Source: Terrimesophilobacter mesophilus (GTDB taxonomy: Bacteria; Actinomycetota; Actinomycetes; Actinomycetales; Microbacteriaceae). From it: a DNA stretch of 64,000 bases. The stretch is taken from positions 1,364,001 through 1,428,000 of the forward strand of contig NZ_JACHBP010000001.1 of NCBI RefSeq assembly GCF_014200375.1, read 5' to 3'. Made by a program: the position numbers and the translations under genes. Shown here piece after piece: positions 13,473 through 24,571 of this stretch (position 1 is its first letter; each line of letters opens with the position of its first letter). The notes under the pieces are model-generated. The model saw only the letters and a program-made list of their open reading frames with translations, was not told where the DNA came from and searched no databases.

Positions 13473-14021
13473 TCACCAGGTCTTTGTCGAAGGGGGGCAG
13501 ACATCTGTCGGACCCATGAGCTTCCCGTCGCGCTCTGTCGTCGCGGCCCCCTCGGTCGGCTCCCATAGGATCCTTTCTCCGCTCCGCTTATAGTCGGAAA
13601 CGAAGACGTCGAAGGACGGGGGGTAGCCGCTGACTAAGCCGTTCTCCGTAAGACAGTCATACTGCGAGATCCTCGCGTCGTAGCGCTTTCGGAGTTCAGA
13701 CTCCGATAGGTCAGAGATTTTCGGCTCCCCGATCTGTTTGGTGCATTTATCGGTGGCTGCCTCCAGTTCCTCCCTCGTGGTTTCACGATTGTCGACGAGA
13801 AATCCTGCCTCGGGATCACCGGGAGGAAGATCCGCCGTTTTGATCCCTTCGTCCTCAAGGCAAGCGCGCTTCAGAACCATGTATTCCTCTGGAGTACCTT
13901 CGAAAACGCGGGTGCCCGAAGGTGAGGGCTCTATCGACTCGACCGGTGGCAGGGTCGCGCATCCAGCTAAAAGAACCAGTTCAACTGCAAGCGCGACCCC
14001 GCCGAGATACCGGCGTCTCAT
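13473..14021 (-). CDS. Lipoprotein A, paralog of lipoprotein B
   Basis: A 182-residue secreted lipoprotein: the N-terminus is basic then hydrophobic and ends in the lipobox LAGC (Cys21). The mature part is not a known enzyme. It is clearly paralogous to the product of 15155-15709: FEGTPEEYMVL/FHGTPAEWSLL, CLEDEGIKTADLP/CLEDNGLTTADLP, and GPTDVCPPSTKTW/GPTDICPRDTSTW at the C-terminus. It is coupled to secreted protein A (stop and start overlap by 4 bases at 14018-14021). By analogy with bacteriocin loci it might protect the producer or help export, but nothing in the sequence proves this. Confidence 0.8.
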   Translation of the reverse strand: MRRRYLGGVALAVELVLLAGCATLPPVESIEPSPSGTRVFEGTPEEYMVLKRACLEDEGIKTADLPPGDPEAGFLVDNRETTREELEAATDKCTKQIGEPKISDLSESELRKRYDARISQYDCLTENGLVSGYPPSFDVFVSDYKRSGERILWEPTEGAATTERDGKLMGPTDVCPPSTKTW

Positions 14022-14371
14022 CCGTGGGTCAGGCAGGATGGCACCCCATGTGCGCTAGTCGCCCCGCTGGTCCACCAATTGCCGCCACCAATTTGGGGTC
14101 CCCCAGTAGTGTTCATTGCTACGCGAGATCGGGTCCCACCCGAGGCATACACATAGTTGTAGTACGTTCCTGGCGGAGAAATCACAGTCTGGCCCCCAGT
14201 TGTGGCAGTGAGCCATCCGAAGAGCTCACCGCAGCCACGGACCCCCGAGTTGGTTACCAGAGCCGAGGCAGATATTGGAAGTGCTAGTGCAAGCACCAGC
14301 GCACCGACACCGGCCGCGGCCGCGGCCGCACTCCTCATTCCCGAGTGCTTTGAGTTGCTTCTATTTCTCAT
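14018..14371 (-). CDS. Small secreted protein A
   Basis: A 117-residue protein with a basic N-terminus, a long Ala/Leu hydrophobic stretch and a signal peptidase site after SASA, leaving a mature protein of about 80 residues. The mature part has two Cys, one near each end (RGCGELFGW and PSCLTHG), and Gly/Thr/Tyr-rich middle sequence (SPPGTYYNYVYASGGTRS). The ATG at 14371 has AAGGGA nine bases upstream. It is paralogous to secreted protein B, which is transcribed in the opposite direction 224 bases away. No known family was recognised; size, disulfide pattern and exporter context make a secreted toxin or bacteriocin possible. Confidence 0.75.
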   Translation of the reverse strand: MRNRSNSKHSGMRSAAAAAAGVGALVLALALPISASALVTNSGVRGCGELFGWLTATTGGQTVISPPGTYYNYVYASGGTRSRVAMNTTGGPQIGGGNWWTSGATSAHGVPSCLTHG

Positions 14372-14595
14372 GTCTGAATCCCTTTGATGAAGTATCGGCT
14401 TACATGGCGCGAACGTTACCACCACTATGGGGGTAGAACAACCATTTCCTTTTGCGACCGATATTGGTCCCAAACTTTGACCACTGCCAAAACCTCACAA
14501 GAAACAAAGTGTTGTAGTTTCACGTTTTGCGAGTTAGCGTCAAGCTATCGTCACAATCGTGGAGTCCTTGAATTGATGTTTAATTGGAGGGGGAA

Positions 14596-14928
14596 ATGGC
14601 TAGAAAGGTTCGACACGGATTAATGGCGACCGCAGGTGCAATAGGGGCACTCGCGCTCGCACTGGCAATACCAACTGCAGCCTCGGCTGCAGTCCACACC
14701 GGCACTTTGGGTTGTGGAGCAAAGTTCGGCTGGGTTACGGCGACTACCACCGGTTCCACGCAGATAACGCCCCCAGGAAGCAGCTGGACGTATATCTATT
14801 CGACCGGAGGCACGCGGTCGGAGGTCGCCATGACCGCGAATCAAATGCCGAAGACCGGTGGCGGCTACTGGCAGGTCTACGCATCAATCAACGCCAGCGG
14901 TAGCCCCTACTGCTCAGCCTTTGGCTGA
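14596..14928 (+). CDS. Small secreted protein B
   Basis: A 110-residue protein with a signal peptide ending AASA and a mature part close to that of secreted protein A: GCGAKFGWVTATT, then ITPPGSSWTYIYSTGGTRS, and a second Cys near the end (SPYCSAFG). The ATG at 14596 follows GGAGGGGGAA, so expression could be high. It heads the rightward cassette of lipoprotein B, adaptor, ABC ATPase and permease, separated from them by 226 bases with no gene. It is the likely substrate, or effector, of that exporter, or it may pass the membrane by its own signal peptide and be handled by the complex afterwards. Confidence 0.78.
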   Translation: MARKVRHGLMATAGAIGALALALAIPTAASAAVHTGTLGCGAKFGWVTATTTGSTQITPPGSSWTYIYSTGGTRSEVAMTANQMPKTGGGYWQVYASINASGSPYCSAFG

Positions 14929-15154: not shown

Positions 15155-15709
15155 GTGAAGAACACAAGGCTTGGCTACTCCGTCGGTCTCGGCGTGCTGG
15201 TAATTTCAGTGCTCATGGCCCTTGTAGGTTGCACGAGCACTGCGCCGGCCCCTTCGCCGACGAATGAGGGGGCAAAGATCTTTCACGGCACCCCGGCGGA
15301 ATGGAGCCTGCTATTTCGCTCCTGTCTTGAAGACAATGGCCTGACGACGGCGGATCTGCCCGACGGCGATGCAAGCGGCTTCATGCTGTCCAACGATGGT
15401 GTAACCGAGGAGCGGCGCACCGAGGTGACAACCAAGTGCCACAGCGAGATCGGTGAGCCCCAAATGGAAGGCTTGAGCGACGACGAATTGCATCGACGGT
15501 ATGAGTCCCGGTTGGATCAGTTCCAGTGCCTGCTCAAGAATGATCTGATCAGCGGCTCTCCGATGAGCTTCGAGAAGTTTGTCGATGAATACAACCGCAG
15601 CGGCCAGAAGCAACTGTGGTCGCCAGACCAGGATGCTTCGACCGTAGAGCGGGACGGCATTCTGTATGGCCCCACAGATATTTGCCCCCGAGACACCAGC
15701 ACATGGTGA
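15155..15709 (+). CDS. Lipoprotein B
   Basis: A 184-residue lipoprotein with lipobox LVGC (Cys26), paralogous to lipoprotein A. Conserved blocks are CLEDNGLTTADLP, a central acidic region with four mature Cys residues, and the C-terminal GPTDICPRDTSTW. The GTG at 15155 is preceded by AGGAG. It overlaps the start of the adaptor gene, so it belongs to the exporter operon. The role is unknown; an extracytoplasmic partner of the exporter or an immunity lipoprotein are both plausible. Confidence 0.8.
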   Translation: MKNTRLGYSVGLGVLVISVLMALVGCTSTAPAPSPTNEGAKIFHGTPAEWSLLFRSCLEDNGLTTADLPDGDASGFMLSNDGVTEERRTEVTTKCHSEIGEPQMEGLSDDELHRRYESRLDQFQCLLKNDLISGSPMSFEKFVDEYNRSGQKQLWSPDQDASTVERDGILYGPTDICPRDTSTW

Positions 15710-16755
15710 GCACCGAGCACCACAATCGGTGGCGGGTGCACGCGGCATGGGCACTCGCACTGTTGCTTGCAGTTGGAGCGGCGTCGTGGGCGACATCAGT
15801 CCTGGTGAACCCGAGTGGAGACCAGACCAAGCCAGAGGCGGCAGCTCCCAAGTACACTGCCGAAGTTGGGGAGATCGGAGTAACAACTTCCGTTCAGGCG
15901 AACGTTGTGTTTCAGGCAGGGCCTTCCGGCACTGCGGGGTTGTCGGGAACGATCACGTCGATCAACATCGAACCAGCTAAGCCGATCAATGCCGGTGATG
16001 TTCTCTTCACGATTGACCTGCGGCCGGTAGTGGTTGCGAAGGGCGCAACCCCCGCATTCCGAGACCTCTCCTATGGAGTTAGAGGCCCCGACGTACGTCA
16101 ACTGCGTCAGTTTCTCGGTCTCACGGATGCGGATGTCTTCGACGGAGCCACGTGGCGCGCCGTGGCAGCGTGGCAGAAGAAGCTCGGGGTCACTGCAGAT
16201 GGCATCGTGCATCGCGGCGACATCCTCTTCCTCAGGTCGCTACCTACCCGTGGCTACCCTTTGGAGGGAATCGAGGTCGGGTCGCCCATCATGGCGGGAC
16301 AGGCAGCGGTGGCGACTGTGCTTGAACGCCCCCTCGTAACGGTTGCCGCGGATGGGACAGGTGCGAAGTTGGCGGCCGGGATGGCGGCCAGCATGACCGT
16401 CGACGGTGTGGAGTACAAGGGCGTCCTGTCGGGGCCATCGCGCGGAACGGACGGGCTTCTCAGCTACAGCCTCACGGGTGAGGATGGATTGTCGGTCTGC
16501 ACGGCGGAATGCGCCATCGGCTTCCCCGTTACGGGAGGACAGATCTCAGTCGAGGTTGATCTCGTCCCCCGTGTGAGCGGAGTCGTGATACCTGATTCGG
16601 CGATCGCAATATTGCCGGATTCATCTACGTCCGTACGAGTGGTGGGCGGGAAGCTCATCGCCGTGAAGGTTGTCGCGAGTGGTCAGGGCCTATCGGTAGT
16701 GGAGGGACTGGAGGCAGGTACCGTCATCGAATTGTTCGCGGACGACAAGTCGTGA
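15703..16755 (+). CDS. Peptidoglycan-binding HlyD/MacA-like adaptor
   Basis: A 350-residue membrane-anchored adaptor. After one N-terminal transmembrane helix comes a lipoyl/barrel-sandwich half (VGEIGVTTSVQANVVF, ITSINIEPAKPINAGDVLFTIDLRP). In place of the usual coiled-coil hairpin it has a peptidoglycan-binding domain (YGVRGPDVRQLRQFLGL, then TWRAVAAWQKKLGVTADG), followed by the second half of the sandwich and a beta-barrel. Such proteins link an ABC pump to the cell wall in actinobacteria. The ATG at 15703 overlaps the lipoprotein stop; a GTG at 15706 is an alternative. The next gene overlaps by 4 bases. Confidence 0.85.
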   Translation: MVSTEHHNRWRVHAAWALALLLAVGAASWATSVLVNPSGDQTKPEAAAPKYTAEVGEIGVTTSVQANVVFQAGPSGTAGLSGTITSINIEPAKPINAGDVLFTIDLRPVVVAKGATPAFRDLSYGVRGPDVRQLRQFLGLTDADVFDGATWRAVAAWQKKLGVTADGIVHRGDILFLRSLPTRGYPLEGIEVGSPIMAGQAAVATVLERPLVTVAADGTGAKLAAGMAASMTVDGVEYKGVLSGPSRGTDGLLSYSLTGEDGLSVCTAECAIGFPVTGGQISVEVDLVPRVSGVVIPDSAIAILPDSSTSVRVVGGKLIAVKVVASGQGLSVVEGLEAGTVIELFADDKS

Positions 16756-17402
16756 TCGAACTCACCGACCTCACCTTCGCATACTCGGTGGCGGACCCTA
16801 TCTTCGCCGGCCTCGACCATCGGTTTGAGCCGGGTACTTCTACTGCCTTGGTAGGTCGGTCGGGATCGGGTAAGTCGACTCTTCTCTATCTCATCGGACT
16901 CATGCTCAGCCCGACCTCGGGCAACATCGCCATCGACGGCATCGCCGCAGACGCTCTCGCCGACTGGCAACGTGCGGAGATGCGGGCGCGACTCATGGGG
17001 TTCGTATTCCAAGATGCGCTGCTCGACCCCGCTCGAAGCATCATCGACAATGTCCTTGAGGGCGCCCTCTATAACGATGTCGCAGGCGGAGACACCCGCG
17101 AAGAGGCCTTGGCATTGCTGTCCCGATTCGGCGTCACAGTCGACTCTGAGCGGAGACCGGGCCAACTCTCCGGAGGACAAGCGCAACGCGTAGCCCTCTG
17201 CCGGGCACTACTTGGCGAGCCGGCAATCGTGCTGGCTGATGAGCCGACGGGCAATCTCGATGACATGAGCGCCGACATCGTATGGGATGCCCTTCTCGGC
17301 TATGCGGCAGCCGGTGCGACCGTTGTGATTGCCACCCATGATCGACAGCGAGCTGCACTGTGCACAAGCATCGTGGAAGTGGGCCATGCCGATCCGGCCT
17401 GA
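16752..17402 (+). CDS. ABC transporter ATPase (MacB/LolD type)
   Basis: A 216-residue stand-alone ATPase with Walker [10 protein letters not shown], signature LSGGQAQR, Walker [13 protein letters not shown] and the H-loop [12 protein letters not shown] places it in the MacB/LolD/FtsE group that partners FtsX-like permeases. The GTG start overlaps the adaptor stop, and the permease start overlaps this gene by 17 bases, so the three form one unit. It powers the type VII-superfamily (mechanotransmission) ABC system with the genes beside it. Confidence 0.93.
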
Positions 17403-18489
17403 GCGTGCCATACGTGAGGCGGCCCGCAACGCCACGGCTCACCGCGCGACCACGATCATGCTCATCCTGGTGACGATGGCCATGACCACGGCAACGTTCA
17501 TTACGGCTGGACGCGCAGCCGCAGCCGAGGAGGCAGTGCTTCACAGCGTCGACAATGCCGGGCCACGCCTCATCGAGGTCACTATCGCCGAGCCCTCTCC
17601 AGGTGTCGATGTCAGCACCCTGGACCGGTTCAAGCACATCGACGGTGTCGAGTGGGTGCTGGGTCTTGGCCCTGCTCGCGACGTACGCTCAAGTGTCACC
17701 GGTGCCCGCGTCAACGTCGCGGCACGGGATCTCCTCAGTCCACTACCACCCGAGGTCACAATCGATCCCGGCCGTTCGCCCCGCCCCGGCGAGGCAATCA
17801 TCGGCGCCGACACTCAGCAGCGGCTCCAGCTCATCTACCCTTCCGGGGCCTTGTTGGATTCGGGTACGTCGCGTGCTGTCGTCGGAGCGTTCAGTGCATC
17901 CGGTGCGATTACGGACCTGGATCGGCTGGTTCTCATTCAACCGGGAGCAACTTCTGCACCCAGCCAGGCAACGCTGGTCTATTTACTCGCCGATCAGGCT
18001 GAGAATGTCGCTGGGATTGTCCGCGAAGTCCGCGCGCTGGCCGCAGTCAGCCCCGTCGACTCCCTCGTGGTTCGTACGGCACCAGAACTTGTGGAACTTG
18101 CGGCGGTTCTCTCCGGTGAGATCGGAGGACTCAGCCGGCAGCTCGCCCTCGGTGCGATTCTGGTCGGTGTCGTTCTTGTCGCCCTCACCATGACCCTTGC
18201 ACTCAGCAGTCGTCGTAGGGACTTCGGTCGTCGTCGAGCCCTCGGCGCATCTCGAAGTGCGCTCATCGCTCTCACACTTTTGGAAGCGGCTTTCCCGGTT
18301 GCCATCGGCGTGATCGTCGGCACTATCGGTGGGCTTACCGCCGTCGTGCTCTGGATGGGCACGGCGCCCCCGATCGGCTTTATTGTCGCGGCGGATCTAC
18401 TCATCGCGCTAACCGGCACCGCCGCCGCAATACCACCGGCAGCTCTCGCGGCAGCGCAGGATCCGGTCCGCATTCTGCGTGTGCCATGA
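17386..18489 (+). CDS. FtsX-like ABC permease
   Basis: A 367-residue permease of the MacB/FtsX type: one N-terminal transmembrane helix (about 25-45), a large extracytoplasmic domain (about 50-255), then three helices near the C-terminus, with LALSSRRRDFGRRRALGASRS between the second and third, the coupling region for the ATPase. It ends with AAAQDPVRILRV, the usual family ending. The start is the ATG at 17386. It completes the exporter encoded by the two genes upstream. Proteins of this group usually move substrate from the outer face of the membrane outward rather than across it. Confidence 0.9.
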   Translation: MPIRPERAIREAARNATAHRATTIMLILVTMAMTTATFITAGRAAAAEEAVLHSVDNAGPRLIEVTIAEPSPGVDVSTLDRFKHIDGVEWVLGLGPARDVRSSVTGARVNVAARDLLSPLPPEVTIDPGRSPRPGEAIIGADTQQRLQLIYPSGALLDSGTSRAVVGAFSASGAITDLDRLVLIQPGATSAPSQATLVYLLADQAENVAGIVREVRALAAVSPVDSLVVRTAPELVELAAVLSGEIGGLSRQLALGAILVGVVLVALTMTLALSSRRRDFGRRRALGASRSALIALTLLEAAFPVAIGVIVGTIGGLTAVVLWMGTAPPIGFIVAADLLIALTGTAAAIPPAALAAAQDPVRILRVP

Positions 18490-20167: not shown

Positions 20168-21298
20168 TCATTCAGCGAGGTCGACCGAGATCTCGCCGGA
20201 GACTCGCAACTTGCCAAATTTCTTCCAATCATTGGTGAGATGCGCATACTGACCCGCGACGACGCCGGTCGCAAGGCCCACGCGTTCAGCGAACGCAGTT
20301 AGATCCTCGGCCGTGTCGATCTCCGCTAGTTCGCGGCGATCACGCTCAGTCAGGAGAAGGCTTTCCGCGAACTGGTCAGCGGCGGTCTCCAAAGAGTCTT
20401 CGTCATCGTGCACTCCGCGTTTCTTCTCGACGTTGATGTAAGTCGCCCGCTTGGGGTGCAGGAGGATATGACCAGTTTCATGGAGAAGGGTGAACCAGAA
20501 GATGTCGTGAAACTTGTGTCTCCCCGATAGCGCGATAATCGGATGTCCTGTTCCCAGCCACCGTGATGCCCCGCATATGCGCGTTCCTTCGACTTCAGGG
20601 ATGAAAACGAGCAGGACCCCAGCTTTCCGCAGTTCGTTCTGTGCGTGACGAAATCCTTTCTTCAAGGACTCGCGGGTGAGCATCGGAAGTGTCGGCGCTA
20701 CGTCTCGCAGTTTGCCGACATTGAAGGTGGGGGTATCTCCAAGTGAGTGTTCCGCCTCCACCTCGGCAAGGCGAAGCCAGAGCGCGGTGGCGTACGGATT
20801 AATCTCGAATTTCTGACTTCGCTTGTAGCTAGCTTGTGGTTCGAGCCATACGCGATCGAAGGCTTCGGTGTCGGCAACTTGGAAGAAGCGCAGCAACTTC
20901 TCGACCTGAGTGCTCGCGGAAGTAGAAGAGTCGATGATTCCCCTTGAGCGGAGGACGGTTGATGGGAACTTGTGGACCCAACTGCCGATGGCGGCAAAGG
21001 ATTTCTGTGCGGTCTCCCGCGCCTTGTGAGCCTGCCAGGACACGTCCATTCGTAGCCAGAGCTCAGCGGGCACGCCAAGCACTCTCTCAAGAGCTAGGCC
21101 GACCTCCGGAGACAGGGGAACATGCCCTTTGAGCACTTGGTTGAGGTGCTTCGTGCTCAGATTGGTCCTGGAGGCTACATCCGTTTGCGAGAATCCACCA
21201 GCGTCCAATTCTCGTTGAATTAGGCGGCCAGGAGATACGGCCCAGTCCGGTGTGAACTCTTGCAGCTGGTATCCAGTTGTGCCACTTGAGCCGGTCAC
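20168..21298 (-). CDS. HigA-type antitoxin with ImmA/IrrE metallopeptidase domain
   Basis: A 376-residue two-domain protein. Residues about 22-75 are an XRE helix-turn-helix of the HigA type (GRLIQRELDAGGFSQTDVASRT, STKHLNQVLKGHVPLSPEVGLALERVLG). The C-terminal half is an ImmA/IrrE metallopeptidase with the zinc motif HETGH (near residue 272) and a downstream Asp/Glu-rich part (EDSLETAADQFAESLLL). It overlaps the upstream toxin-like gene by 4 bases. Such proteins neutralise and repress their partner toxin, and the peptidase domain can destroy the repressor under stress. Two TTACC-N5-GGTAA operators upstream are its probable binding sites. Confidence 0.88.
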   Translation of the reverse strand: MTGSSGTTGYQLQEFTPDWAVSPGRLIQRELDAGGFSQTDVASRTNLSTKHLNQVLKGHVPLSPEVGLALERVLGVPAELWLRMDVSWQAHKARETAQKSFAAIGSWVHKFPSTVLRSRGIIDSSTSASTQVEKLLRFFQVADTEAFDRVWLEPQASYKRSQKFEINPYATALWLRLAEVEAEHSLGDTPTFNVGKLRDVAPTLPMLTRESLKKGFRHAQNELRKAGVLLVFIPEVEGTRICGASRWLGTGHPIIALSGRHKFHDIFWFTLLHETGHILLHPKRATYINVEKKRGVHDDEDSLETAADQFAESLLLTERDRRELAEIDTAEDLTAFAERVGLATGVVAGQYAHLTNDWKKFGKLRVSGEISVDLAE

Positions 21299-21672
21299 GA
21301 GGCCACCGCGGGCGATAGCTCTTTGCCATGCGCAGCGAGCTTTTCGACCAGAAGGGCTGGCTGATGGCCAGCACTCTTCCAGAATTGGTCGGGGGACGCG
21401 AGCTTGACTTGCTCGCCTCTTTCGTTAAGCACTAATGCAGACATTTCGACCTCCTCGAGTTGAATGGATAGTTCAGCGAAGCGGGTGCCGCGCTCCTTCA
21501 CTGGGCGAAGACGAAGGCTTCGCAGGTGGCGCAAGGTGCGCAGGTCGGGTGCCCCGGCAATGGTGAAGAGCAGGTCCTTCGCCGCAGCAGCGCTTTGCGG
21601 CCAGTGTCTCTCTAGACCGTCCGCAGCGGCGCACAGGTTATGCACGTCTGCAGAACGCCACGCTAGGAGCAC
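21295..21672 (-). CDS. HigB/RelE-like toxin
   Basis: A 125-residue protein of the RelE/HigB fold (killer protein of toxin-antitoxin systems): LLAWRSADVHNLCAAADG, then AAAAKDLLFTIAGAPDLRTLRHLRSLRLRPV, the usual basic core of HigB. Members cleave mRNA on the ribosome. The GTG at 21672 has AGGAGG five bases upstream, and that ribosome site lies in the middle of an operator palindrome. Toxin first and antitoxin second is the HigBA order. Confidence 0.78.
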   Translation of the reverse strand: MLLAWRSADVHNLCAAADGLERHWPQSAAAAKDLLFTIAGAPDLRTLRHLRSLRLRPVKERGTRFAELSIQLEEVEMSALVLNERGEQVKLASPDQFWKSAGHQPALLVEKLAAHGKELSPAVAS

Positions 21673-21727
21673 CTTTACCTCCTAGGTAAAGATAATTAAT
21701 GCTAAGCTGCTATTACCGATTAGGTAA
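21673..21727. promoter_or_regulatory. Two TTACC-N5-GGTAA operators between the toxin-antitoxin and Ubl operons
   Basis: Site 1, CTTTACC-N5-GGTAAAG (21673-21691), overlaps the toxin ribosome site; site 2, TTACC-N5-GGTAA (21713-21727), is 38 bases away centre to centre. Both have the same core and spacer length. They lie in the 111-base divergent gap that also holds the promoter of the ubiquitin-like operon, so one repressor may control both. Confidence 0.7.
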
Positions 21728-21783
21728 ATCCTAGCAGGTGCGAACTATTTGCCCTGTATCGACAACGAGAAAGTTGGACTGAG

Positions 21784-22047
21784 ATGACGCATCAGGATCT
21801 CGCCGAGGCGAGCAAGAAGAAGTACCCGAAGATCAACATCACGATCGATTCGAAGACCTACACGGTTCGAGACGATGACTGGGAAGCGGGCGCGCTTCTC
21901 CGCCTTGCAGGTTTAGATCCGGTCGAGTACGACCTGGCCCAGATCAAGAAGAATGGCCAGCTTAAGCGTTTCAAGGACGGCCACGTCGTGAAGGTAGAGG
22001 ACGGCGATGAGTTCGAGTCGGTCAAGCAGGATGGTCCGGTGGCCTAA
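21784..22047 (+). CDS. Ubiquitin-like protein (multiubiquitin family, single domain)
   Basis: An 87-residue beta-grasp protein of the multiubiquitin family: INITIDSKTYTVRDDDWEAG, ALLRLAGLDPVEYDL, then FKDGHVVKVEDGDEFESV. Family members usually have one or more such domains and act as modifiers that an E1 activates at a C-terminal Gly. Here the chain ends QDG-PVA, so a Gly would only be exposed if the last three residues were removed, a job suited to the JAB domain encoded two genes downstream. It heads an operon with E2-like and JAB-E1 genes, overlapping the next gene by one base. Confidence 0.88.
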   Translation: MTHQDLAEASKKKYPKINITIDSKTYTVRDDDWEAGALLRLAGLDPVEYDLAQIKKNGQLKRFKDGHVVKVEDGDEFESVKQDGPVA

Positions 22048-22409
22048 TGGCGGAGGGAGCGCGAGATGGAGTCGAGGGCTTCGTTGCAGATCTTGCCGAC
22101 TGGGGTGTCTCGGCACAGGTTCACGATATCGCCGTGGTCTTTGACGTACGTGCAGTAGGCGGTGCCTTGGAGGGTCAGCTAGTCCAGAGTGGTGTGTCGA
22201 TCAATGAGCTCGGATCGTGGCCGGCCATCCCACCACATTGGGTACATTTCCCAACCAGTGTCAGCCTGCCCCAGGTCCACCCCGATCAGAAAGACACGCT
22301 GCCAGGGTGGACTCGTCATTCGCGACAGATTGAGCGATGGGACCAGGTCACCGAGCCCGGTCGAGCCTGGCTTGGACACGTCCGCGCCGTCCTTGCGGGA
22401 GCAACCTGA
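22047..22409 (+). CDS. E2-like (ubiquitin-conjugating fold) protein
   Basis: A 120-residue protein in the position of the E2 in bacterial ubiquitin-like operons. It matches the prokaryotic E2 pattern: DIAVVFDVRAVGG, a central PPHWVHFP and WTRHSRQIERWDQV, ending WLGHVRAVL. It contains no Cys at all, so it cannot form the usual E2 thioester. It may bind Ubl or E1 non-covalently, or use another residue such as a His. The assignment rests mainly on order between Ubl and JAB-E1 plus the His/Trp motifs. Confidence 0.7.
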   Translation: MAEGARDGVEGFVADLADWGVSAQVHDIAVVFDVRAVGGALEGQLVQSGVSINELGSWPAIPPHWVHFPTSVSLPQVHPDQKDTLPGWTRHSRQIERWDQVTEPGRAWLGHVRAVLAGAT

Positions 22410-22411
22410 CC

Positions 22412-23896
22412 ATGCCGACTCCGGAGTATTCCGTCGCTATGCCTTCAGACATTGACCGGGAGCTGAAGCAGCACCTGGTTCGCAAAGATGGTCAAGAGGA
22501 TGTGTGCCTGGCGACCTACGCAATCTCCCGCGGACGGGATCGGACGACAGCACTTATCCGTCGAATCTTCCGGCCGGCACGAGGTGAGAGGCACGTGCAT
22601 GGCAATGCAGCGTTTACGGGGGACTATGTCATCCGAGTCGCCCAGGAGGCCGCATCGCGCGGTGAAGGTCTGATCCTCCTGCACAGCCACCCTGGTGGTC
22701 GAACTTGGCAGGGCCTGAGTTCGACTGACCGAGAAACCGAATCCGGCTATTCGGGCGTCGCAGGCGCCGTCACGAAACTGCCGGTAGTAGGCATGACCCT
22801 CGCGGGCGAGAGTGGTGCATGGTCGGCTAGGTTCTGGATCTCCCGTTCCGAGAGTCTTGAAGCGGAAGCGGTCCGGGTCGTCGGTGACCAGTTTATGCAG
22901 TCCTTCAATCCGCGTCGCCGCGCCGCACCCCTTGCCACCGAGTCGCAACGACGGACAGTAAGCGCCTGGGGGGAGCTGGTCCAAGCTGACTTCGCCCGCA
23001 CGCGGGTGCTTGTCGTGGGACTGGGAAGCGTAGGGCTCGACGTGGCCCAAAGGCTCGCAGCCTCCGGCGTCCAGTCGATTGGGCTTATGGATTTCGATGC
23101 GGTCGAAGTCCACAATCTCGACAGGATGATCGGGGCGACTCGCACCGACGCAAGAATCGGCCGCACAAAGGTGGAGGTTGCCCGACGTCTGTTGCTCGCG
23201 CAAGCCACGGCGAGTTCGCCGGACATCCGCAGTCACGAAACCTCAATCTGTGACCCCGATGGGCTGGCCGTAGCGCTTGACTATGACGTTGTGTTCTCCT
23301 GCGTCGACCGACCATGGGCGCGCGCGGTGCTAAACCAGATCGCCTACTCAGACCTGATTCCCGTCATCGATGGGGGAATCAATATCGAGGCCACCGAAGA
23401 CGGCCGTATGCGCAGTGCAACAGCGCGTGCGCACACGCTCGTACCAGGCCAACCATGCATGGTTTGTACCCAGCAACTCAATCCGGCTCGCGTTGCACTT
23501 GACAGAGAAGGGCTGCTTGACGACGAGGAATACATTCGGGCGTCGGGGATTGACGCTGAGCGCGTCGGGCAGAATGTTGCCACTATGTCGGCGACGGCCA
23601 GCTCGATGCTTCTCGCGCAGTTCGTGAGTCTAATCGCGGCACCCGGGGGAAGAGGGATCCCAGGTCCGCTTTGCTTCCACTTCCGTCATCACATCCTCGA
23701 GCACATAGAAACGACGCAGAACCCGGTATGCCGCTGGGAGGCCGATCCCGGTGAAGGTGATCTGCGCCTTCCGGTCGCCACTGGCCATGCGCACGCTCAA
23801 GAGATATTGAGACAACGACAGCTCAACAGACGCGGCCTCGCGCCATGGTTTGCGAAGTTTCGGGAAGCGCTAGGCCGGCTCCTGTTGCCGGATTGA
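22412..23896 (+). CDS. JAB deubiquitinase-E1 (ThiF) fusion
   Basis: A 494-residue fusion. The N-terminal JAB/JAMM domain has HSHP (residues 91-94) and S-x2-D (103-106), the zinc-binding isopeptidase motif. The C-terminal half is a ThiF/E1 adenylation domain with GLGSVG (about 203), DFDAVEVHNLDR (about 227-238), SCVDRPWAR and a Cys pair, CMVC (349-352). Such fusions activate the Ubl C-terminus by adenylation and can process or remove it. The ATG at 22412 lies 2 bases after the E2-like stop. A Cys-bearing helical insert like that of eukaryotic E1s is not obvious. Confidence 0.92.
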   Translation: MPTPEYSVAMPSDIDRELKQHLVRKDGQEDVCLATYAISRGRDRTTALIRRIFRPARGERHVHGNAAFTGDYVIRVAQEAASRGEGLILLHSHPGGRTWQGLSSTDRETESGYSGVAGAVTKLPVVGMTLAGESGAWSARFWISRSESLEAEAVRVVGDQFMQSFNPRRRAAPLATESQRRTVSAWGELVQADFARTRVLVVGLGSVGLDVAQRLAASGVQSIGLMDFDAVEVHNLDRMIGATRTDARIGRTKVEVARRLLLAQATASSPDIRSHETSICDPDGLAVALDYDVVFSCVDRPWARAVLNQIAYSDLIPVIDGGINIEATEDGRMRSATARAHTLVPGQPCMVCTQQLNPARVALDREGLLDDEEYIRASGIDAERVGQNVATMSATASSMLLAQFVSLIAAPGGRGIPGPLCFHFRHHILEHIETTQNPVCRWEADPGEGDLRLPVATGHAHAQEILRQRQLNRRGLAPWFAKFREALGRLLLPD

Positions 23897-23954
23897 AATC
23901 CGCACATGTTTTCAACACCAATCGAATTATTCGTCCATGGAGAGGAGGTGAATC

Positions 23955-24074
23955 ATGGGTAAGTCATCAAAGCCCTCGAAGTCCCAGTTGAGCAAAGCTG
24001 GATCGACGCTCGCCTCAAACTCGTCGTCGAAGGCGTCGAAGTCCCAGGCAGCATCAACACTCGGCAAAGGCTGA
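23955..24074 (+). CDS. 39-residue Ser/Lys-rich peptide of the Ubl operon
   Basis: A very small gene with an excellent ribosome site (AGGAGG, six bases before the ATG) 58 bases after the JAB-E1 stop and directly before a strong terminator. The peptide is almost only Ser, Lys, Ala, Gly, Thr, Gln and Leu, and contains an imperfect repeat, KPSKSQLSKAGSTL and KASKSQAASTL, ending GKG. It has 7 Lys and 14 Ser. Nothing suggests a signal peptide. Its place, in the same transcription unit and before the same terminator, makes it a candidate substrate, carrier or cofactor of the ubiquitin-like system. Confidence 0.75.
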   Translation: MGKSSKPSKSQLSKAGSTLASNSSSKASKSQAASTLGKG

Positions 24075-24089
24075 AAGCTGTTGTCCAAA

Positions 24090-24119
24090 TGCCGGCCCGC
24101 GCGATTGGCCGGGCCGGCA
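24090..24119 (+). terminator. Strong hairpin terminator after the Ubl operon
   Basis: TGCCGGCCCG (24090-24099) and CGGGCCGGCA (24110-24119) form a perfect 10-base GC-rich stem with a 10-base loop. There is no T tract, as is common in actinobacteria. It follows the 39-residue gene by 15 bases, supporting a transcript of Ubl, E2-like, JAB-E1 and peptide. Confidence 0.8.
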
Positions 24120-24571
24120 CTTGGCGTCTCTGACGAGCATCTGCATTACTCCGATACTTCAGGCTGGCCCTACATTGCCGCGACGGCGTAACGCTCGAAC
24201 GTTCAGCGGCCTCACGATTTCAGTGAGATAGGCGACCAATCCGATCATGGTCTTTGAGGCCGATTTGGGGTTGCGGGACCGTACGCGGCCTAGGGAAGAT
24301 GTGACAGTACGGGCGTTGACAAGTCGCGTGTTAGCGGTCGGATTGGGGCGCCACAGTGACGACCTTGCGTGCGCAGCCCGAGCCCATTCCCCAGATCAAG
24401 AGAACGCGCCGACCGCCCAAGACAAGGTAAGGAGACACGCCCTAGCTGGCCAAGGCGGTCGCGGTTGACGAGGTCAAATGGCAGAAGCCGCCGCATCCGC
24501 TCAGGGATCCCAGGCTAGAACGGATAGCGGGCAGTGGGCGGCTTCGTCCGACTATCGAGTGGGAACCCAGG
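24120..24571. other. No gene seen
   Basis: About 450 bases between the Ubl terminator and the convergent end of the membrane-anchored XRE gene. Short open frames on the plus strand (for example 24247-24468) have no ribosome site, no recognisable product and unremarkable composition. No repeat of note was seen. Confidence 0.4.

Follow-up and report, generated by a model that had tools for sequence, protein, structure and literature searches.

A Bub-type ubiquitin-like conjugation operon in Terrimesophilobacter mesophilus and its candidate HigB-like/HigA-M78 regulator

Among the bacterial operons for conjugation of ubiquitin-like (Ubl) proteins, the class designated type 6e by Iyer et al. 2006 combines (PMC1779556) one to three Ubl repeats, an E2/RWD protein lacking cysteine and a JAB domain fused to an E1 domain; "certain actinobacteria" are named as carriers, and a gene for a zinc-binding DUF6527-type protein is a frequent, not universal, companion. 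According to the CapK/CapS paper (PMC13373217), CapW or the CapH and CapP pair, which respond to DNA damage, are encoded beside 219 of 544 Bub operons. COG2856/DUF955 loci adjoin 70% of PF14452 genes and are read as stabilising toxin–antitoxin loci by Kopfmann et al. 2016 (PMC4963859). Here, we describe an operon of this kind from Terrimesophilobacter mesophilus, found in a window of 64,000 nucleotides (positions 1,364,001-1,428,000 of a single-contig 2.41-Mb genome; the coordinates below are those of the window), which is a member of the known Bub or type 6e class.

We consider it probable that the locus encodes a stress-induced Bub pathway from an actinobacterial clade devoid of DUF6527, and that its control lies with a divergently transcribed switch made up of a HigB-like protein and a HigA-type helix-turn-helix (HTH) protein fused to an M78 protease. 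An association of such operons with regulators is already known; what is new here is the fused HigA-M78 form with its common operator. For Bub there are solved structures but no shown protective role (2026 EMBO J paper), and its mode of induction offers a route into function. The role in phage defence, which an earlier sequence-only reading of this stretch had invoked, was overstated, protection against phage by Bub not being demonstrated according to the CapK/CapS paper (PMC13373217).

The conjugation operon and its clade

Three open reading frames (ORFs) on the forward strand make up the operon: a Ubl of 87 residues (BubA-like; 21784-22047), an E2-like protein of 120 residues (BubB-like; 22047-22409) and a JAB-E1 fusion of 494 residues in a single ORF (BubCD-like; 22412-23896). 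The first two genes overlap in a TAATG junction (-1 base), and the second and third are separated by a gap of 2 bp. We studied 15 loci of the clade (the window, L003, L015-L019 and L024-L031), in all of which Ubl and E2-like genes adjoin the E1 gene, in some records as unannotated genes. The three-gene core is real, its recurrence in 14 other loci lying far beyond chance, and in this respect the Ubl/E2-like/JAB-E1 conjugation operon perceived in the sequence-only reading is borne out. Ten of the 15 loci have a single Ubl and five a double one (L019, L024-L027). That reading had also considered the single Ubl, the Cys-less E2 and the fused JAB-E1 to be distinctive; these traits are in fact typical of type 6e, and the definition of that type (PMC1779556) rules out the novelty of the combination.

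By profile, the JAB-E1 fusion is a BubCD-type protein. A profile of 11 JAB-E1 sequences finds Citrobacter BubCD as the best of 46 PDB sequences (E 4.1e-28), the match covering both JAB and E1 (residues 6-351) and surpassing that to MoeB (2.6e-12). Pfam ThiF spans the E1 half (1.8e-30), and Prok-JAB falls short of its Pfam cut-off (13.8 of 25 bits); PADLOC returned for this protein matches to generic E1-E2 models only. Both sets of catalytic motifs are intact. The JAMM residues E29, H91, H93, S103 and D106 are invariant in all 11 sequences, as are G203, G205 and G208 of the GxGxxG motif, D227, D229, R238, K253 and D299 of the E1 domain. The only invariant cysteines in the same alignment are C349 and C352, which form a CxxC motif, C297 and C440 being nearly invariant.

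No Pfam family matches the E2-like protein. An AlphaFold2 model from two sequences reached a predicted local distance difference test (pLDDT) of 79.8 and a predicted template-modelling score of 0.74, and the 50 VIA matches listed for it were all E2/UBC folds, with Citrobacter BubB fourth among them (Z 7.2, 108 aligned residues, 3.5 Å). The link in sequence to typical Bub E2s is a motif only, GW-x-RHSR versus W-x-x-WSR: the stretch GW-x-RHS92R aligns with WQRWSRH of the Synechocystis E2, which is itself aligned with YQRWSRH of BubB, and the Synechocystis protein matches BubB at 1.2e-14. Several scores count against this assignment. Every VIA Z value lies below 8, the best Foldseek E value is 0.44, an E2-like profile run against PDB sequences finds no relative and returns only Cullin-4B (E 1.7), and hhalign with typical Bub E2s is very weak (probability 3.4, E 0.013). 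We regard the predicted E2 fold as well supported, although the scores by themselves would not establish it. The protein has no cysteine, and in an alignment of ten sequences H67, W88, S92, R93, H111 and R113 are invariant; in the Cryobacterium copy, aligned apart, tryptophan replaces R93. Bub employs a noncanonical conjugation chemistry in which the Ubl is joined through a serine oxyester. The invariant Ser92 (10/10), situated in the GW-x-RHSR motif, is compatible with such chemistry, and we claim only that for it.

The Ubl had been called multiubiquitin-type from its sequence, a designation that its own score against Multi_ubiq (PF14452) does not reach (19.1 bits, cut-off 24.5) and that its family sustains, 10 of 12 aligned members matching at E <= 0.01 (best 3.9e-12). 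A Ubl profile further gives weak matches to the multi-ubiquitin structures 9d5b and 9cd2 and to the Ubl-BilA structure 8u38 (E 0.07-0.09). Fold prediction, which supported the E2-like protein through its E2/UBC matches, did not do so here: a model of poor quality was obtained for the Ubl (pLDDT 62.8), and Foldseek finds no PDB match for it, which detracts from the assignment. The window protein ends in DGPVA. Throughout the family the C-terminus reads [AG]-x-V-[AGS] without a diglycine, the valine being invariant (12/12), with an additional residue in L018 as the one exception; the JAB domain may trim the Ubl behind [AG], or the end may be used as made, its sequence being compatible with either.

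A ThiF/MoeB-type E1 domain with a retained CxxC (C349, C352) would also suit a Ubl that is activated for sulphur transfer or small-molecule synthesis and not for protein tagging. Against this stand the neighborhood, which holds no metabolic genes, the E2-fold partner and BubCD-like JAB-E1, and the account of Iyer et al., where the class is set apart from metabolic ones (PMC1779556); we regard it as extremely improbable. In the protein-tagging pathway that we favor, on grounds of Bub homology and the catalytic motifs, the E1 would adenylate the Ubl C-terminus and, together with the Cys-less E2-like protein, join the Ubl to target proteins, and the JAB domain would trim or remove it. The benefit may lie in defence or in stress management.

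A search of 394 sampled genomes of the class turned up JAB-E1 relatives (E <= 1e-20) in 10 of them, namely that of the window, five with close relatives (G300, G147, G010, G013 and G082; 42-54% identity) and four with distant ones (26-30%). A further close relative is the Cryobacterium fucosi JAB-E1 (52% identity). At E <= 1e-15, 62 of 72,556 plasmid records match, the ten best of which (50-57% identity) are all actinobacterial; none of 50,697 phage records matches JAB-E1, and it was confirmed in none of the 28 pattern stretches from viral_contigs. In a tree that takes in 14 of the 15 clade loci (L019 left out), the 14 E1s sit together on a branch of length 2.61 (support 100/99), with six other rows lying outside it, and the window E1 groups with L024-L027 (support 93/95), the exact root being weakened by two very long outgroup rows. 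A hidden Markov model (HMM) of DUF6527, built from two sequences, matches nothing in the 15 clade loci and detects L032 and L033 (its own seeds) and L074. On these sequence comparisons the operon is placed in a well-supported, divergent actinobacterial clade without DUF6527 that is often plasmid-borne. The lack of DUF6527 raises the question of whether JAB alone is enough to remove the tag. In L019 (genome G082), insertion of an IS21-like transposase pair has interrupted the JAB-E1 gene.

The divergent HigB-like/HigA-M78 pair and its palindromes

Two genes on the reverse strand face the operon. One encodes a protein of 376 residues (20168-21298) that joins a HigA-like HTH to a metallopeptidase of the M78 (ImmA/IrrE) family, a presumed repressor or antitoxin combined with a protease switch; it matches Pfam M78 (4.9e-08) and HTH_3 (1e-06), has an intact HETGH zinc motif (HExxH) and scores 41.0 bits against TIGR02607 HigA (cut-off 47.7). 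The other encodes a HigB/RelE-like partner (125 residues; 21295-21672), a presumed toxin with 34.7% identity over 75 residues to the partner in L031. The HigB-like toxin family PF05015 (cut-off 27) gives 29.0 bits for the L029 partner and 21.9 bits for that of L031.

In 13 of the 15 clade loci, the region up to about 3 kb upstream contains an M78 gene, the L019 copy of which does not reach the Pfam cut-off (18.8 of 22 bits). Its setting takes three forms. The divergent HigB-like gene with the HigA-HTH-M78 fusion occurs in seven of 15 loci (the window, L024, L025, L026, L027, L029 and L031); a divergent HTH with M78, as one or two genes, occurs in L015, L016, L018 and L019, the M78 gene alone having been identified in L015; and L003 and L028 have a co-directional sigma-like gene followed by an unknown gene and M78. 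A HigBA-type module is also found upstream of the distant L020 operon. The HMM used for HigB-like proteins was built from five sequences including that of the window, so that matches to those are circular, and those in L020, L026 and L027 are independent.

Between the divergent genes are two operator-like palindromes. The first, TTTACC-N5-GGTAAA (21674-21690), lies a single base upstream of the HigB-like GTG start codon and overlaps the gene's likely ribosome-binding site; the second, with one mismatch, lies at 21712-21728. Even when up to two mismatches are allowed, the 64 kb of the window contain no other match; 0.19 are expected, and one of 100 shuffles reached two. The generalized form TYACC-N5-GGTRA is present in the divergent region of seven of eight HigBA-M78 loci (the seven clade loci and L020), and Clavibacter L025 has the variants TTTACC-N5-GGTACA and TGTACC-N5-GGTACA. 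Shuffled divergent regions contain the pattern in a mean of 0.006 loci (maximum 1), a figure that is somewhat optimistic since the pattern was noticed in the same regions as tested; elsewhere in 338,528 bases from 21 loci there are just two more sites. A simple scan for sigma-70 promoters found none.

In the mechanism that we propose, the HTH of HigA-M78 would sit on these palindromes between the two promoters and repress both, as their conservation suggests. The M78 protease would be activated by stress, the signal probably being DNA damage, to which CapP and PprI/IrrE also respond; by analogy with known families, the active protease would cleave the repressor, derepress the Ubl operon and possibly free the HigB-like toxin. 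The CapP and PprI proteases are reported to be activated by single-stranded DNA (PMC13373217; PMC10904395). A protease-bearing antitoxin with a conserved operator would constitute a compact induction circuit, one that could couple a toxin and protein tagging to a single stress signal.

The same pair can be viewed as an ordinary toxin–antitoxin module that stabilises the cassette by addiction and has no regulatory tie to the Ubl operon, as proposed for a cyanobacterial relative by Kopfmann et al. 2016 (PMC4963859). HigA-M78 indeed occurs without a Bub JAB-E1 in most of its matched genomes and is often alone with its HigB-like partner. We judge this account unlikely, given that the palindromes lie in the shared divergent promoter region of seven of eight loci and that the variant arrangements, split HTH and M78 (L016, L019) or sigma-like gene and M78 (L003, L028), keep the protease and not the toxin. 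Among the papers retrieved on HigA-type antitoxins and multiubiquitin, only the Synechocystis paper proved relevant.

The regulatory role nevertheless has to be set against four observations that tell against it: the HigB-like protein of the window has no Pfam match; L017 and L030 (two of 15 loci) have no M78 gene; the type of regulator is swapped within the clade; and five of the eight HigA-M78 genomes besides that of the window have neither palindrome nor ubiquitin-like operon. The last of these comes from a search in which nine of 388 genomes of the class match HigA-M78. As an independent check, we inspected the nine places that comprise all of these matches except that of the window (G124 contributing two): the site adjoins HigA-M78 in L074 and L078, lies elsewhere in L079 and is absent from six. 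The HigA-M78 module is hence shared with, and not exclusive to, Bub operons, because it comes with site and operon in L074 and with neither in five of eight genomes. The closest homologue in the 388-genome sample is that of L074 (G274; 52% identity), where HigA-M78 faces a second subtype of Bub-like operon, with a long Multi_ubiq-looking Ubl, a DUF6791-ThiF protein and a DUF6527-like protein, and has the same palindrome. L017 and L030 have in common a homologous-looking gene (286-336 residues) and an AAA-type gene, L030 also having a sigma-like gene; the shared genes are perhaps another type of regulator. The sequence-only reading had placed the operon beside a toxin–antitoxin pair. With M78 genes in 13 of 15 loci and a common operator-like palindrome in the divergent promoter region, this pair appears to be no bystander and is better read as the regulator of the Ubl operon.

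The 39-residue gene and the surroundings of the operon

Downstream of JAB-E1, a small Ser/Lys-rich ORF of 39 codons (23955-24074, forward strand) is preceded by GGAGAGGAGG, a strong Shine-Dalgarno sequence. Close spacing, with gaps of a few bases, had been ascribed to four co-linear genes; it applies to the three core genes and not to this one, which is separated from the JAB-E1 end by 58 bp. A G+C-rich hairpin at about 24085-24124 (forward strand; -31.4 kcal/mol, z -4.19) is a likely terminator and agrees with the single strong terminator claimed for the end of the unit, but has no T run. Shuffled versions of the stretch directly after JAB-E1 fold about as well as the stretch itself (z -0.22).

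Homologues occur in 4 of 296 class, 7 of 297 order, 2 of 396 phylum and 5 of 214 family genomes in samples that overlap, one of the two phylum matches being weak (E 4e-4) and not counted. They come from 13 distinct genomes (that of the window, G265, G219, G146, G328, G579, G448, G627, G382, G1187, G1168, G1090 and G1013), with family loci in the window, L035, L036, L037, L053-L057 and L083-L086. The C-terminus is STLGKG in 11 of 12 copies read and STVGKG in that of G1013; the G382 copy is a match only (E 2.6e-13) with its C-terminus outside the motif, and was left out of the 12. Among eight copies (28 pairs), 368 synonymous differences stand against 175 non-synonymous ones, mostly at third positions, and a purine-rich Shine-Dalgarno-like stretch precedes most starts; the G448 copy has a stop at codon 3. 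Judged by these patterns, the 39-residue gene is a real protein gene. The family is small, basic and rich in Ser, Lys, Ala and Gly, with two SKAG-x-TL repeats; it lies several times near defence-type genes and is usually followed by a hairpin.

A four-gene pathway, with the 39-residue protein as dedicated substrate or second modifier, could draw on the strongly conserved C-terminus of this basic Ser/Lys-rich protein and on its placement behind JAB-E1 here and directly behind a different E2-JAB-E1 operon in G219. We hold it to be very unlikely. The gene is present in none of the 14 sister Bub loci, on which ground we reject a four-gene unit, and an actinobacterial search for the neighborhood proposed in the sequence-only reading recovered the three-gene set (14 other loci) and not the four-gene one. 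Elsewhere it occurs near AIPR (G265), AAA_13 (G579), ABC-3C parts (G448), an N6-methylase system (G627), a DEAD/ResIII helicase (G328), PIN_4 (G146), restriction-modification or unrelated genes; in G382, G1013, G1090, G1168 and G1187, which were without a Pfam scan, no neighbors were recognised. These proximities to defence genes are raw counts. The small protein was confirmed in none of 153 stretches from viral_contigs, and tblastn against plasmids gave no match, a result that the low-complexity filter makes uninformative. We judge the gene to lie outside the conjugation machinery that we propose, as a roaming small gene found mostly in other settings.

The G219 operon that it follows (L050 4075-8830) encodes a Cys-containing E2-like protein, a JAB-like protein and a very divergent ThiF/E1 (17.8 bits), with divergent split HTH and M78 genes and no recognised Ubl. 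It is a long shot that the 39-residue protein acts as a disordered modifier or as a dedicated substrate, acquired on separate occasions behind two E1 operons that are unrelated (the window and G219); if true, it would be a Pup-like tag or, for a bacterial ubiquitin-like pathway, the first target with a genetic link to it.

The placement of the operon in an accessory-type stretch agrees with base composition: G+C is 0.59-0.61 between 12 and 32 kb, lower than the 0.64 of the whole window and the 0.66-0.71 further downstream. In the same stretch, at 14018-14928 and 15616-18489, small secreted proteins of 135 and 110 residues are encoded near ABC-transporter genes; we take them to resemble lactococcin 972-type bacteriocins.

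Comparison with known systems

The closest described system is Bub, represented by Citrobacter BubB and BubCD (PDB 9ea4, 9ea5, 9ea8, 9eae and 9eav), which has the same Multi_ubiq-type Ubl, the same Cys-less E2-fold protein and the same N-terminal JAB fused to E1 in the same gene order, with HTH/M78 regulators nearby. In contrast, the window operon has no DUF6527 gene, its E2 is too divergent for sequence detection, its Ubl ends in [AG]-x-V-[AGS] without GG, and a single HigA-like protein, accompanied by a HigB-like one, unites HTH and M78. The multiubiquitin cassette on pSYSX of Synechocystis PCC 6803 (SGL_RS01610-RS01620) likewise has the Ubl, E2-like and JAB-E1 genes and a divergent pair of HTH and COG2856 genes; it differs in having two Ubl domains, a DUF6527 gene, separate HTH and protease genes and a JAB-E1 of about 30% identity.

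Bil shares the Ubl, E2, E1 and JAB functions. However, it has a two-domain BilA (PMC11354881), an E2 with a catalytic cysteine (CEHH) and separate JAB and E1 proteins, whereas the window has an E2-like protein without cysteine and a JAB fused to E1. On the regulatory side, the CapH and CapP pair offers the same combination of an HTH repressor and an M78-family protease (HExxH) beside an immune-type operon. In the window, HTH and M78 instead form one polypeptide of 376 residues with a HigB-like partner, which would work like CapH and CapP without being filed as such.

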